This document shows positions 11,119 through 19,836 of a stretch of 24,840 nucleotides of DNA, one piece after another. This stretch comes from a virus. Position 1 is the first letter of the stretch. Every line of letters begins with the position of its first letter. Below the pieces are notes generated by a model. That model saw nothing but the letters and a program-made list of their open reading frames with translations, made no database searches and was not told where the DNA came from. The position numbers and the translations under genes are program-made. Location: positions 1-24,840 of IMG/VR virus record IMGVR_UViG_3300022888_000037; one strand, 5' to 3'.

Positions 11119-11829
11119 ATGACTATTCAATTAGCTCATAAAGCGGTGTTGGCTCGTAAGAATGTTGCGGATGACCCTGTTGACATATTTGGTGATGGCT
11201 CTTGCTTTGCAGCTTATACGTTTGATGACACTATTGCGGAATATAAAGGTAGATACACAAATACTGCGTATAATACGCCAACATATACCACTGAAAATCT
11301 CGGCAAGGCTATAAATTTTAATGGCACTAACCAATATGCTGTTTTAGATTTAAATGCTGCTGGAGAAGATTTTTATGCTATTAGTTTTTGGAGATATTCT
11401 AATCAAGCGTCAGGATATATCGAAACGGCTGAAGCTATAGATTCTGCTTCAGTAGGGTTCGCCCTTGCACCTGATGGCTCTGGATTTACTGGAGCATTTC
11501 CAAATGAGAAAAAAGCTATCGGTGACTCATACTCATCAACAACTCTGGTCAGTTATCAGACATGGCAACACATTGTTTATAATTGGGACGCTGGAAACTC
11601 AAGATATGATCTGTATGTAGATGGTACATTAGACGATAATTATGATTTAAGAGAAAATTCATCTATTGTATTAGCTAATGTATCAAGATACATTGTTTTA
11701 GGCACTTCAATGACAACTTATCCAACACCAGTCTTATATTGGCCTTGTAAGTATGACCAATTAAGGGTTTTTAATCGTGTGTTGACAGGTGGGGAGATTA
11801 CTACTTTATATAATGAAGGTGCTTTATAA
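11119..11829 (+). CDS. LamG/concanavalin-A-like lectin tail protein
   Basis: 236 aa, SD GGAGG ten bases ahead of ATG 11119. Residues about 30-236 follow a laminin-G / ConA-like fold: CFAAYTFDDT, LGKAINFNGTNQYAVLDL, YAISFWRYS, YQTWQHIVYNWDAGNSRYDLYVDG, and the closing YDQLRVFNRVLTGGEITTLYNEG. The last motif ('y-DqlRiFnRaLt-~-Ei~-LyneG') is highly characteristic of phage and bacterial LamG domains that bind surface carbohydrate. It is likely part of the adhesion device with the preceding fibre-like protein. TAATG overlap with the next gene. Confidence 0.85.
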   Translation: MTIQLAHKAVLARKNVADDPVDIFGDGSCFAAYTFDDTIAEYKGRYTNTAYNTPTYTTENLGKAINFNGTNQYAVLDLNAAGEDFYAISFWRYSNQASGYIETAEAIDSASVGFALAPDGSGFTGAFPNEKKAIGDSYSSTTLVSYQTWQHIVYNWDAGNSRYDLYVDGTLDDNYDLRENSSIVLANVSRYIVLGTSMTTYPTPVLYWPCKYDQLRVFNRVLTGGEITTLYNEGAL

Positions 11830-12638
11830 TGACAACAATAAAACAAGCACTAATACAATACTACAGCTCAGGCACAGGTGGTCAGCAGTGGCTAAGTGGA
11901 AAGCTTGCAAGGGATATGCGTGATCCAGATCAGGGATGGCAAAAGAATATCCTGTTAAAAGCCATTGCCAAACTTTGTCTTTGGTATAATCCTCAAGCTG
12001 TCCATCCCGATATGGTTGTTGAAATATGCAACTCAATCAAGATGCCCACAGTTGAAAAACTTCTTGTCCTGATGCAAGGGGCAGAGGATATAGGGTTTGA
12101 TTTATCAGGCTTGTTTGAGTGGATGCATCCTGTCCTGACCAAAAGATATTTCACTGAGGTTATAGACTTCATTGAACTGAAACAATTCATCCACGACACA
12201 ATACCAGGAACATTCAGAGTTTTATTTGGTCCTGCCCAACACGAAAAGGATTTAGTTGAGATTGAAGATCAATTTAATATTCTGATCCCATACGATAAAT
12301 TAGATTATGTAATGGGAAAAGACCCTTCTCCCAGGCATTTATATATTGTTGACTCAACAGATTGTGATGATTTCTCAAGGCGGGGCAAGGTCTGGCTTGC
12401 AAATCAGCAGTTGGGAAACCTAACAATAGGGATTATAAAAGCTAATTTCTACTTCAATAATGGCTATAAAGGCGGTCACTCTTTCAGGATTGCAGTTTGT
12501 GTAAAATCTGATGGGTCAAAGGTTATAAGATTCAGAGATAGCCAAAATACAGCAGTCAAGTGGGATTATGGTGAACCTGTTAATCTTCCCATAATCGGTG
12601 AAGTGGATCGAATGGATATAATTAATATAGTGATGTGA
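11829..12638 (+). CDS. Tail-associated protein with papain/MOA-like cysteine-hydrolase C-terminus
   Basis: 269 aa starting in a TAATG overlap. Residues 1-155 are mostly helical with no motif I recognise. The C-terminal 100 residues contain STDCDDFSRRG (Cys179, Asp180, Asp181), GGHSFRIAV (His217) and IRFRDSQ (Asp237, Gln239). This Cys-Asp-Asp-Phe / His / Asp-x-Gln arrangement matches my recollection of phage proteins related to the Marasmius oreades agglutinin (MOA) papain-like domain, where Cys and His form the active site. It sits between the lectin and the endolysin, suggesting a virion-borne or cell-surface hydrolase. Family placement is inference from motif spacing; a transglutaminase-like or amidase-like Cys hydrolase is the alternative. 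Confidence 0.58.
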   Translation: MTTIKQALIQYYSSGTGGQQWLSGKLARDMRDPDQGWQKNILLKAIAKLCLWYNPQAVHPDMVVEICNSIKMPTVEKLLVLMQGAEDIGFDLSGLFEWMHPVLTKRYFTEVIDFIELKQFIHDTIPGTFRVLFGPAQHEKDLVEIEDQFNILIPYDKLDYVMGKDPSPRHLYIVDSTDCDDFSRRGKVWLANQQLGNLTIGIIKANFYFNNGYKGGHSFRIAVCVKSDGSKVIRFRDSQNTAVKWDYGEPVNLPIIGEVDRMDIINIVM

Positions 12639-12640
12639 TT

Positions 12641-12988
12641 ATGAGATTATCAGAGAAACAGCAAATCTTTACAGCTTGTATAGGTAAACTTATCTTGTTT
12701 GCAAGCAGCAAAGAATACGGGCTTACACAAGGGGACGGATACCGTGATCCAAGAGTCTTTGGTGAAATGGGGGAAAAACGGAGTTACGCTTCAAAGAATT
12801 CTGTCCATAAGATAAGACTTGCACATGACTTTAATTTATTTGTTAAAGGTGAATTTATCTCAGACGGTGGCCATCCTGCCTGGTTAGAACTTGGAGAACA
12901 TTGGGAATGTTTACATAAAGATGCAAGATGGGGTGGAAGGTTCGATGACGCAAATCACTTCAGCTTTGAACATTGGGGTTGCAAATAA
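12641..12988 (+). CDS. Endolysin, M15-family peptidase
   Basis: 115 aa. ATG 12641 gives the family-typical start MRLSEKQQIFT; an in-frame GTG at 12635 overlaps the previous stop and could also serve, and no strong SD is seen for either. Zinc-peptidase motifs are clear: SVHKIRLAHDFNLF (His56, Asp63; S-x-H-x6-D) and FDDANHFSFEHWG (Asp103, His106), plus GGRF. These are the metal ligands and catalytic acid of M15 D-Ala-D-Ala/L-Ala-D-Glu peptidases used as phage endolysins. No signal peptide, so release would rely on a holin, which is encoded nearby. Confidence 0.88.
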   Translation: MRLSEKQQIFTACIGKLILFASSKEYGLTQGDGYRDPRVFGEMGEKRSYASKNSVHKIRLAHDFNLFVKGEFISDGGHPAWLELGEHWECLHKDARWGGRFDDANHFSFEHWGCK

Positions 12989-13099: not shown

Positions 13100-13456
13100 T
13101 TGAGAGAACGTAGGCAGATTTCTAAAGTTGACAGGTTGATTACGTGGGGGTTTAATTTGGCAATTATTGGGCTGTTTTCAGTATGTGGGTTACTGTATGC
13201 TCAACAAAATAAGATCATTGATAAGCAAGATGATAAGATCAATTACAAGTACACGGAACTTTGTGATAAGTTAGATAAAAAGGTTGACAATGCTGTGTTG
13301 CTTGAGATGATTAAAACTATTAATGTTCAACAGGCAGTTGATATGAATAATTGGGAACGGCAAGAAAAGATGAATACTAAGGTTCTTAGCAACTTAGAAG
13401 AGCTTAATATGAATGTTATCTTGCTTAACGATAAATTGGAATTTATCAAAGAATAG
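13100..13456 (+). CDS. Membrane-anchored coiled-coil protein of the lysis cassette (spanin-like candidate)
   Basis: 118 aa. The start is TTG 13100, supported by AAAGGAG seven bases upstream. Residues about 13-35 (LITWGFNLAIIGLFSVCGLL) form an N-terminal membrane anchor after a short basic segment, then roughly 80 polar residues with heptad-like helical pattern (NKIIDKQDDKINYKYTELCD, ... NLEELNMNVILLNDKLEF). This N-in/C-out layout is what inner-membrane spanins show, but many phages encode similar proteins of unknown role, and I see no lipoprotein partner (no lipobox ORF overlapping it). Lies between the small membrane protein and the holin. Confidence 0.65.
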   Translation: MRERRQISKVDRLITWGFNLAIIGLFSVCGLLYAQQNKIIDKQDDKINYKYTELCDKLDKKVDNAVLLEMIKTINVQQAVDMNNWERQEKMNTKVLSNLEELNMNVILLNDKLEFIKE

Positions 13457-13465
13457 GGGTGTCAA

Positions 13466-13882
13466 ATGCTTAATATATTAAGTGCTGTTACAGGTGCAAT
13501 TGATACGGTGGCAGATAAGTTTTTTGTAGATGCAGCAGACAAGGAAAAATTCAAACTCCAGGCTTTAAAGATGGCACAGGACGGGGAGTTTAGATCACAG
13601 GAAAACCAACTTAATGCGATCCTTGCCGAAGCAAAGAGTTCTGACCCTTGGACAAGCAGGGCAAGACCTTCTTTTTTGTATGTGATGTACTTATTAATCC
13701 TTTTCTCTTTGCCTATGGGGGTTCTTTCTGCTTTTAAGCCTGATATAGCAGTCCAGGTTGCCACAGGTATGCAGTCATGGTTAAGTGCGATACCAGATGG
13801 CTTATGGGGTGTATTCGGGGCAGGGTATCTTGGTTATGTTGGTGCAAGGGAGTATGGGAAAAGTAAATTAATAGGTAAATAA
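13466..13882 (+). CDS. 3TM-type holin (GTA-holin family)
   Basis: 138 aa. After an amphipathic N-terminal half (VADKFFVDAADKEKFKLQ), the motif SSDPWTSRARPSFLYVMYLL begins a membrane segment (about 68-90), followed by a second hydrophobic stretch (about 97-126) and the ending GYVGAREYGKSK. The 'W-x-x-RARP' entry and 'GY-x-x-ARE-x-x-K' exit are hallmarks of the 3TM_holin / GTA_holin family. Position as the last gene of the lysis cassette, ahead of a terminator, agrees. It would permeabilise the inner membrane for the M15 endolysin. Confidence 0.82.
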   Translation: MLNILSAVTGAIDTVADKFFVDAADKEKFKLQALKMAQDGEFRSQENQLNAILAEAKSSDPWTSRARPSFLYVMYLLILFSLPMGVLSAFKPDIAVQVATGMQSWLSAIPDGLWGVFGAGYLGYVGAREYGKSKLIGK

Positions 13883-15632: not shown

Positions 15633-15953
15633 ATGGGTGTTGAATTAACACAAAAACGATTAAAAGAGTTGTTCCTTTATGATCCTGAAACTGGTCTTTT
15701 TACAAGGCGTTATAGAATACTGTCAAGGGGCAGGGCATCAAAGATCGGTGTAACTGGGGTCTTTTATATTGATGCTATTGATAAGTGGGATGCTCAAATT
15801 AAGATAAATTATAAAAAACATAGATTGGGTCAATTTAAATCTAAACTGAAAGCTGTATCTGCAAGATGGGAAGCTGAAAAGAAATACAAATTTCCTGATT
15901 GTAGCACAAAATCAACAGCATATTTATACTTAAAAGAAAGGAATGTGGCATAA
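15633..15953 (+). CDS. AP2-like DNA-binding protein, possibly an HNH endonuclease without its catalytic core
   Basis: 106 aa, SD AAGGGGG. Residues 5-26 (LTQKRLKELFLYDPETGLFT) match the N-terminal module of phage HNH homing endonucleases. Residues 45-85 (WDAQIKINYKKHRLGQFKSK, then AVSARWEAEKKY) match an AP2-type three-strand DNA-binding domain. The HNH motif normally between or beside these modules is missing: there is no His-His pair or CxxC. It could be a regulator derived from a homing endonuclease or a degenerate one. It sits between recombination genes, and TAATG couples it to the exonuclease. Confidence 0.62.
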   Translation: MGVELTQKRLKELFLYDPETGLFTRRYRILSRGRASKIGVTGVFYIDAIDKWDAQIKINYKKHRLGQFKSKLKAVSARWEAEKKYKFPDCSTKSTAYLYLKERNVA

Positions 15954-18953: not shown

Positions 18954-19184
18954 ATGAAACCATCAAAAATCAAACAAGCCCGGCTAACCCTGGGCTTCAC
19001 CCAACAGAAAATATCAGGTATCATGGGAATTCATATCAAACTCTGGCAAAAATGGGAACAGGGAAGTCAAGGTATATCAGCAGCACCCGCAATGTTTTTG
19101 AGACTAATATTGGTTTTGGCTAAAATGGGGATACTTGAGAAATGCTTAAAAAGGATTGAAAATGACAACACCAAAAAGCTTTAA
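18954..19184 (+). CDS. HTH (XRE-like) protein
   Basis: 76 aa. Residues 5-40 form a helix-turn-helix of the Xre/MqsA type (IKQARLTLGFTQQKISGIMG followed by IHIKLWQKWEQGSQG). The LGFTQ and WEQG positions are the usual marks of recognition-helix flanks. The C-terminal half (FLRLILVLAKMGILEKCL) is a dimerisation-type helix. It lies just ahead of, and overlaps, the PLD-like gene by 23 nt, suggesting it regulates or partners that gene. Confidence 0.82.
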   Translation: MKPSKIKQARLTLGFTQQKISGIMGIHIKLWQKWEQGSQGISAAPAMFLRLILVLAKMGILEKCLKRIENDNTKKL

Positions 19185-19836
19185 AAAATCTAACAAAAGA
19201 GGTAGAATAATAAGGGTTTGTAAAAAATCAATAGCATCGGAAGCTATTGGGAAACTTCAAAAAAATACCGATACATTTATTTTGACATTCGGTCAATTTT
19301 CTTTGATTGATACACTCACATCTATTTTAGATCAAACCGGACCGGCCCATGTAACAATAAGCACATGGACGGCTGCCAATGCCGATCTTGAGAGATCGGC
19401 CAGCCTCATGGCCTCATCTGAAATTCTGTCGTTACGAATGATAGTTGATAATTTTTTTAAAACACGCCAGCCCAAGTATTTTTATCACATGATAAATTTA
19501 TTTGGGTCAAATAGTATCAGGCAGATGAAAACACATGCAAAATTTATTATTGTCCAAAATGATCAATGGAATATTGTTGTTCGAACATCCATGAATTTAA
19601 ATAAAAATCCACGCCTCGAAAATATAGAAATATCTGAGAATAAAGATTTTACGGATTTTTTTAATAAAATTGTGGACGAAATTTTTAATGAAATAAAACC
19701 AAATGAGGTAAAAAAAAGTATTCTTGATCTTAAAAATACAGAAGAACAAAGTTTATTTAAAGAAGTTTCAGCAAATTTCATCAAGAGGAGTAGTTTAAAT
19801 GAGCCAAGATTTAGCCACGAAATTAAAGAAAAGTAG
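19162..19836 (+). CDS. Phospholipase D-like (HKD-type) phage protein
   Basis: 224 aa from ATG 19162, six bases after AAAAAGGA; a TTG at 19156 would leave no SD spacing. FILTFGQFSLIDTLTSIL (39-56), VTISTWTAANADLERS (64-79) and LRMIVDNFFKTRQPKYF (91-107) lead to THAKFIIVQND (His125, Lys127) and VVRTSMNLNKNPRLENIEI (139-157; Ser143, Asn145). H-x-K followed by S-x-N is a single PLD half-site, so activity would need a dimer. The Asp normally seven residues after His is not in place (Gln132; Asp134 is the nearest). Substrate unknown; a nuclease role is possible. Confidence 0.72.
   Translation: MTTPKSFKKSNKRGRIIRVCKKSIASEAIGKLQKNTDTFILTFGQFSLIDTLTSILDQTGPAHVTISTWTAANADLERSASLMASSEILSLRMIVDNFFKTRQPKYFYHMINLFGSNSIRQMKTHAKFIIVQNDQWNIVVRTSMNLNKNPRLENIEISENKDFTDFFNKIVDEIFNEIKPNEVKKSILDLKNTEEQSLFKEVSANFIKRSSLNEPRFSHEIKEK

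Follow-up and report, generated by a model that had tools for sequence, protein, structure and literature searches.

Our results indicate that a gene from an uncultured phage (virus record IMGVR_UViG_3300022888_000037) probably encodes a papain-type protease of the MOA (Agglutinin_C) kind, in the form of a distant variant, as judged from sequence comparison and a predicted structure. The window, that is, the whole stretch of DNA analyzed (24,840 nucleotides), harbors this gene (P0001) between a lectin gene and an endolysin gene. The best explanation of the window protein, to which we assign a probability of about 0.6, is that it is a calcium-switched, MOA-type papain-like cysteine peptidase that is made late and acts at the envelope or surface. 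The fold class, the kinship, the conservation of the site, and the gene order are the established part of this explanation.

The protease of MOA has been called a fungal-specific subfamily (excerpts of PMC4764322). We found no study of phage members of the MOA type in the open-license literature, which omits most subscription papers, and the phage family of such proteins appears to have gone unstudied. An MOA-type protease that is a stand-alone protein at the junction of tail and lysis genes in a phage is a new setting with a testable role for this family, and the phage members offer a bridge for the annotation of other unnamed phage genes. A tentative and broader possibility is that MOA-type proteases with a calcium switch form a wide family in prokaryote viruses, often beside a lectin or carbohydrate-binding gene, that the fused lectin-protease pair of mushrooms corresponds to two coupled phage genes acting on the bacterial envelope, and that the protease of the fungal chimerolectins may derive from a microbial or viral stand-alone enzyme.

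Relatives of the window protein and kinship to MOA

The gene and its two parts are as follows.

11829..12638, + strand: window protein gene (P0001), ATG-to-stop open frame, 269 amino acids plus stop
11829..12203, + strand: N-terminal region (residues 1 to about 125), predicted with low confidence to consist mainly of helices
12204..12635, + strand: papain-like catalytic domain, residues about 126 to 269, from the AlphaFold2 model and the MOA/PSL1a fold match

The initial annotation had located CDDF (Cys179), GGHSF (His217), and RDSQ (Asp237) in this gene, and all three are present at these places in the open 269-residue frame; the opposite (minus) strand of 11829-12638 is packed with stops. 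The gene is nucleotide identical in two IMG/VR contigs, L001 and L002, which seem to be of the same virus group; over 10.7 kb, L001 and the window have 99.0% identity. One other close version is present in IMG/VR (P0002, in L003 and L004) and is 82% identical to the window protein.

By itself, the window protein has no usable match in Pfam, NCBIfam, PHROGs, PADLOC, or PDB. The whole protein matched 0 Pfam families at an E value of ≤1, and residues 151 to 269 matched 0 at ≤10. The direct match to PF18021 (Agglutinin_C) is thus missing, which marks the protein as a distant variant outside Pfam membership, and the window's own record, searched with PF18021, gave no match. Matches to phrog_11712 and similar families were dropped (E value of 0.05 or worse). 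A tblastn search of 50,697 annotated phages returned three records of one kind of Haloarcula virus at an E value of 0.9, which we take as chance. A megablast search of the same phages with the whole window was negative, and two scans of genome contigs found no relative.

Relatives were sought in IMG/VR with a degenerate pattern consisting of DCDDF and a glycine-histidine pair at the right distance, which was rerun with EPQ added; two protein searches supplemented these scans. The earlier pattern scans gave 27 loci, comprising 2 from the window's own virus group (L010 and L019), 6 MOA-like loci (L012, L015, L027, L029, L030, and L034), 18 short LapG-like frames that were excluded as a different family, and a long frame (L035) that reads as an RNA-phage replicase and in which the pattern is due to chance. 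Later pattern scans added 24 loci (L043 to L066). The proteins of the family come from uncultured viruses and are mostly 140 to 250 amino acids long. After near-duplicates (L029, L043, L053, L054, and L062) were kept out, the alignment had 29 rows; the alignment used for folding had 28, with L046 also left out. The window protein is 34% identical over 71 residues to the protein of L027 (P0003), the most informative relative, with a BLASTP E value of 7e-9 that applies to a set of 33 sequences only. Among the 50,697 annotated phages, L012, L027, L065, L052, L047, L038, and L060 have no match, and L015 has a single match at 0.6.

A second, unnamed phage family of about 125 to 147 amino acids carries GDCDDFA and GGGHAVL motifs. 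It is represented by 18 loci (L011, L013, L014, L016 to L018, L020 to L026, L028, L031 to L033, and L036), and the two members tested are weakly like Peptidase C93 (E values of 0.15 to 0.16).

Because most relatives were found via the motif, the search itself accounts in part for the conservation of DCDD, the His, and EPQ. For this reason, the kinship was judged with a profile of 26 relatives that lacks the window protein, P0002, and L027, and with 2,000 shuffles that hold the DCDDF and GGH of the window protein in place. The profile scores the window protein at 28.9 bits, a value reached by none of the 2,000 shuffles (mean, 7.5; standard deviation, 3.1; maximum, 23.6 bits); among the 113 frames of the window that span 60 codons or more, the runner-up has 4.5 bits. 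L027 scores 56.2 bits (0 of 2,000 shuffles). P0002, the closest relative of the window protein, scores only 16.4 bits, which 1 of 2,000 motif-fixed shuffles reaches. An hhalign comparison likewise joins the window protein to the family (probability, 88; E value, 3.4e-6).

Against 177,635 PDB sequences, the same profile found PSL1a (9.9e-16) and MOA (1.4e-13, and variants of MOA), with no credible match beyond these (the next row has an E value of 3). Eighteen of the 26 members match PF18021 at an E value of ≤0.1 (best, 2.9e-11) and 17 match PF18022 at the same threshold; both families are classed as papain-like (excerpts of PMC10318531). The link to MOA, tentative in the initial annotation, is now backed by this profile and by the fold match described below. 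The spacing of Cys and His alone was considered as proof of this kinship and was not accepted.

Predicted fold and active site

A first AlphaFold2 model, built from two sequences, had a pLDDT of 37 and was discarded. The model of residues 100 to 269 built from the 28 rows has a pLDDT of 80.2 and a pTM of 0.77, and it superposes on MOA, which bears out the papain-like fold proposed at the outset. With this model, the top eight rows of a Foldseek search are all MOA/PSL1a (E values of 3.6e-4 to 2.8e-3), and VIA-align gives MOA/PSL1a Z scores of 10.0 to 10.4. The top row, at 10.4, is PSL1a (Polyporus squamosus lectin; 3phz and 5mua), a fungal chimerolectin that the family profile also matches best in PDB and that is about 14% identical to the window protein in the fold alignment. 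In BFVD, Foldseek matched uncharacterized virus proteins, among them A0A140F3M5 of Pyrobaculum filamentous virus 1 (E value, 1.7e-4; probability, 1.00), which is listed with no function. This fold match comes from an archaeal filamentous virus, and the protein is already titled "Agglutinin C-terminal domain-containing protein"; the domain is therefore not wholly unannotated in viruses.

The residues of the proposed site are as follows.

12267..12269, + strand: Asp147, invariant Asp upstream of the Cys, D in 29 of 29 aligned rows
12342..12344, + strand: Tyr172, 7 residues before the Cys, at the place of MOA Trp208 (oxyanion hole), from the alignment column
12360..12371, + strand: Asp178-Cys179-Asp180-Asp181, nucleophile with adjoining acids that are proposed to bind calcium, 29 of 29, partly by selection
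12477..12479, + strand: His217, proposed general base, at the place of MOA His257, 29 of 29, partly by selection
12537..12545, + strand: Asp237-Ser-Gln239, at the place of MOA Glu274 and Gln276, from the alignment

The relatives keep both the Cys and the His (29 of 29 aligned), although most were found by a DNA pattern demanding both. Asp147 was not in the pattern and is still D in every row. The column of Tyr172 holds Y in 21, W in 6, F in 1, and H in 1 of the 29 rows and is thus aromatic (Y, W, or F) in 28. The column of Gln239 holds Q in 28 rows, partly by selection. The third catalytic place, also partly by selection, is E in 27 rows and D in two, the window protein and P0002. The Glu-Pro of the family is replaced by Asp-Ser in the window protein; P0002 has the D without the Gln two residues further on.

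In MOA, the catalytic residues are Cys215, His257, and Glu274, with spacings of 42 and 17; Glu274 anchors His257, Trp208 lies in the oxyanion hole, and Gln276 lies at the substrate (excerpts of PMC8244254 and PMC4764322). Through the family profile, Cys179 and His217 align with Cys215 and His257, and Asp237, Tyr172, and Gln239 are the other counterparts in the alignment. The Cys/His/Asp set, spaced by 38 and 20 residues, is thus in the catalytic register of a papain-like site, as the initial annotation had supposed. Its structural reading (papain-like, MOA kin) was right, and its interpretation as a whole is partly supported.

The C-terminal protease domain of MOA (PF18021) and the window protein therefore have in common the fold (Z score of about 10), the register of Cys, His, and acid, the aromatic residue at Cys-7, the Gln two residues after the acid, and the acids around the Cys. 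They differ in the third catalytic residue, which is Asp in the window protein and Glu in MOA, and in the helical N-terminal region, which lies outside the alignable core of the family and whose end, at about residue 125, was set by judgement. They also differ in their lectins: the chain of MOA also includes a beta-trefoil lectin, whereas the window encodes a ConA-like lectin as a separate gene. Family searches found no lectin domain within P0001, which is accordingly not a chimerolectin. Further traits of the MOA family are a dependence on calcium or manganese and a dimeric L-domain.

Gene setting, mechanism, and alternative explanations

The order of genes in the window is tail genes, a lectin, the window protein gene, an endolysin, a small protein, and a holin, so that the initial placement of the gene between lectin and endolysin holds.

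11119..11829, + strand: Laminin_G_3 (ConA-like) lectin gene (PF13385, 1.9e-13)
12635..12988, + strand: M15-like endolysin gene (phrog_1768 endolysin, 6.8e-8; PF13539, 0.0015, below the cutoff)
13100..13456, + strand: small protein, N-terminal segment hydrophobic by eye, open frame, with no PHROG match below 0.02
13466..13882, + strand: holin (PF11351, 4e-23; phrog_3427, 1.8e-26)

The final base of the TAA stop of the lectin gene is also the first base of the ATG of the window protein gene, whose TGA stop is overlapped by 4 bases by the GTG start of the endolysin; an in-frame ATG at 12641 is an alternative endolysin start. Comparable settings are found among the relatives. L027 has a tail protein (phrog_5939) two genes upstream and an endolysin (phrog_181) and an Rz-like spanin downstream, and L065 and L055 have an endolysin-type gene downstream, for which a tail-lysozyme family scores slightly better in L065. 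Upstream of the family gene are a Laminin_G_3 lectin in L059 (5.7e-13), a CBM96 gene in L047 (4e-16), a pectate-lyase-like gene in L051 (1.3e-7), and a tail fiber gene in L003 (phrog_4492, 5.4e-67). Exceptions, by eye, are L038, where the gene lies among ParB-like and methylase genes, L052, L058, L060, and L063, where it adjoins terminase or portal genes, and L048. In 11 of the 26 loci tested, the family gene adjoins a small gene that encodes a hydrophobic segment; for the other genes of these loci, the count is 35 of 230 (Fisher P = 0.002); this test of hydropathy and neighbors is crude, its loci are not independent, and it was run without L034, L045, L056, and L061 and with L062 included.

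An export signal is absent from the window protein (before the Cys, hydropathy over 15 residues peaks at 1.04), which would therefore depend on the holin or the virion for its exit from the cytoplasm. One member of the family, encoded on a viral contig of 137 kb (L048:2899-3435), has a lipoprotein-like signal at its start; the signal was read by eye and was not flagged by a lipobox pattern scan, and it suggests export in at least one relative. The gene neighborhoods and this signal favor action at the envelope; we consider lysis only slightly likelier than entry.

MOA is activated by calcium or manganese (excerpts of PMC8244254 and PMC4764322). In DvhG, a relative of LapG that binds calcium at the acids around its Cys, D316 and E318 flank C317 and are required for calcium-dependent activity (excerpts of PMC13090378). 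Asp178 and Asp180 occupy the places of these two residues, and from this analogy we infer a calcium switch that would keep the window protein inactive in the cytoplasm. We likewise infer that it is a protease and is expressed late, as well as its substrate and where and at which stage it acts. Cys179 would attack the peptide bond, with His217 as the base, Asp237 orienting His217, and Tyr172 and the backbone NH of Cys179 forming the oxyanion hole; Asp178 and Asp180 would help to bind calcium, which would open the active site. The protein would be made late, together with the receptor-type lectin and the endolysin, would be off in the calcium-poor cytoplasm and on after reaching the periplasm or the outside, and would there cut envelope or surface proteins, aiding lysis and release (somewhat likelier) or entry. 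Such a calcium switch, if true, would be a neat means of silencing a lytic protease until the membrane opens.

It is possible, though far from the expected outcome, that the window protein is a virion protein, a peptidase carried on the tail beside the lectin that would cleave a surface protein or remove a layer of adhesin at adsorption, in line with the initial annotation. The one-base overlap with the lectin gene speaks for this, as do the tail-fiber or carbohydrate-related genes upstream in L003, L027, L047, L051, and L059; however, no domain fusion to a recognized tail protein was seen among the relatives, and the group of L049, L057, L058, L060, and L062 adjoins small hydrophobic-segment proteins, not fibers. 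Papain folds also carry out deamidation and transamidation, and the protein might be a deamidase, a transglutaminase, or a host-takeover effector that acts on a cytoplasmic host protein. Protein-glutaminase is indeed the next solved fold after MOA/PSL1a in VIA-align (Z scores of 5.4 to 6.0), and 4 of the 26 relatives touch Gln_amidase (PF15644; best, 3.8e-4). MOA and PSL1a, both active proteases, are nevertheless far better matches in sequence and fold, a DCD motif of the calcium type is a poor fit for action in the cytoplasm, and the neighbors are lysis genes, all of which make such a role unlikely.

The overlap with the endolysin gene would also suit an accessory peptidoglycan endopeptidase working alongside the M15 endolysin, and CHAP and NlpC papain-fold domains are common as endolysins (excerpts of PMC10318531). 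The window protein, however, matches no CHAP or NlpC family and no peptidoglycan-hydrolase family in Pfam, NCBIfam, or PHROGs, and the known activity of the MOA family is on proteins (excerpts of PMC8244254); we regard this role as quite improbable. Least of all do we expect a member of the LapG/DvhG family (BTLCP, Peptidase C93) in place of MOA's. These adhesin-cutting enzymes, which are under the control of c-di-GMP receptors, resemble the window protein in the Cys between two acids (DCD/E), in the Asp of the C-H-D triad (excerpts of PMC13090378), in the Tyr of the oxyanion hole (excerpts of PMC4764322), and in a calcium dependence that would be common to both. Their sequence and fold matches are far weaker than those of MOA: PF06035 (Peptidase C93) matches neither P0001 nor its residues 151 to 269 and is matched by 1 of the 26 relatives (0.038), versus 18 for PF18021, and the LapD-LapG entry (4u65 chain E) has a VIA Z score of 4.4, versus about 10 for MOA.

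The catalytic half of the gene in contig L003 and other window frames

L003:5001-6513 and window positions 11829-12638 have the gene in common and otherwise, at the blastn level, only an 89-bp piece. Over codons 1 to 100, the two genes differ by 7 silent changes and 0 amino acid changes; over codons 151 to 254, 72 codons differ. In L003, the family gene is followed by an HNH gene (PF13392, 2.7e-10) and, directly behind it, by the final 28 bases of the window gene in an exact copy. From the sequences, this looks like a replacement of the catalytic half linked to a homing endonuclease, with the old 3' end left behind.

A frame of 106 amino acids at window positions 15633-15953 has no Pfam match, and the end of its DNA resembles the 3' end of the HNH gene of L003 (78.7% over 89 bp); the frame is perhaps an HNH/AP2 remnant. 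Positions 19156-19836 of the window encode a protein of 226 amino acids with a HAKF...N pattern, which we take to resemble that of phospholipase-D-type nucleases.
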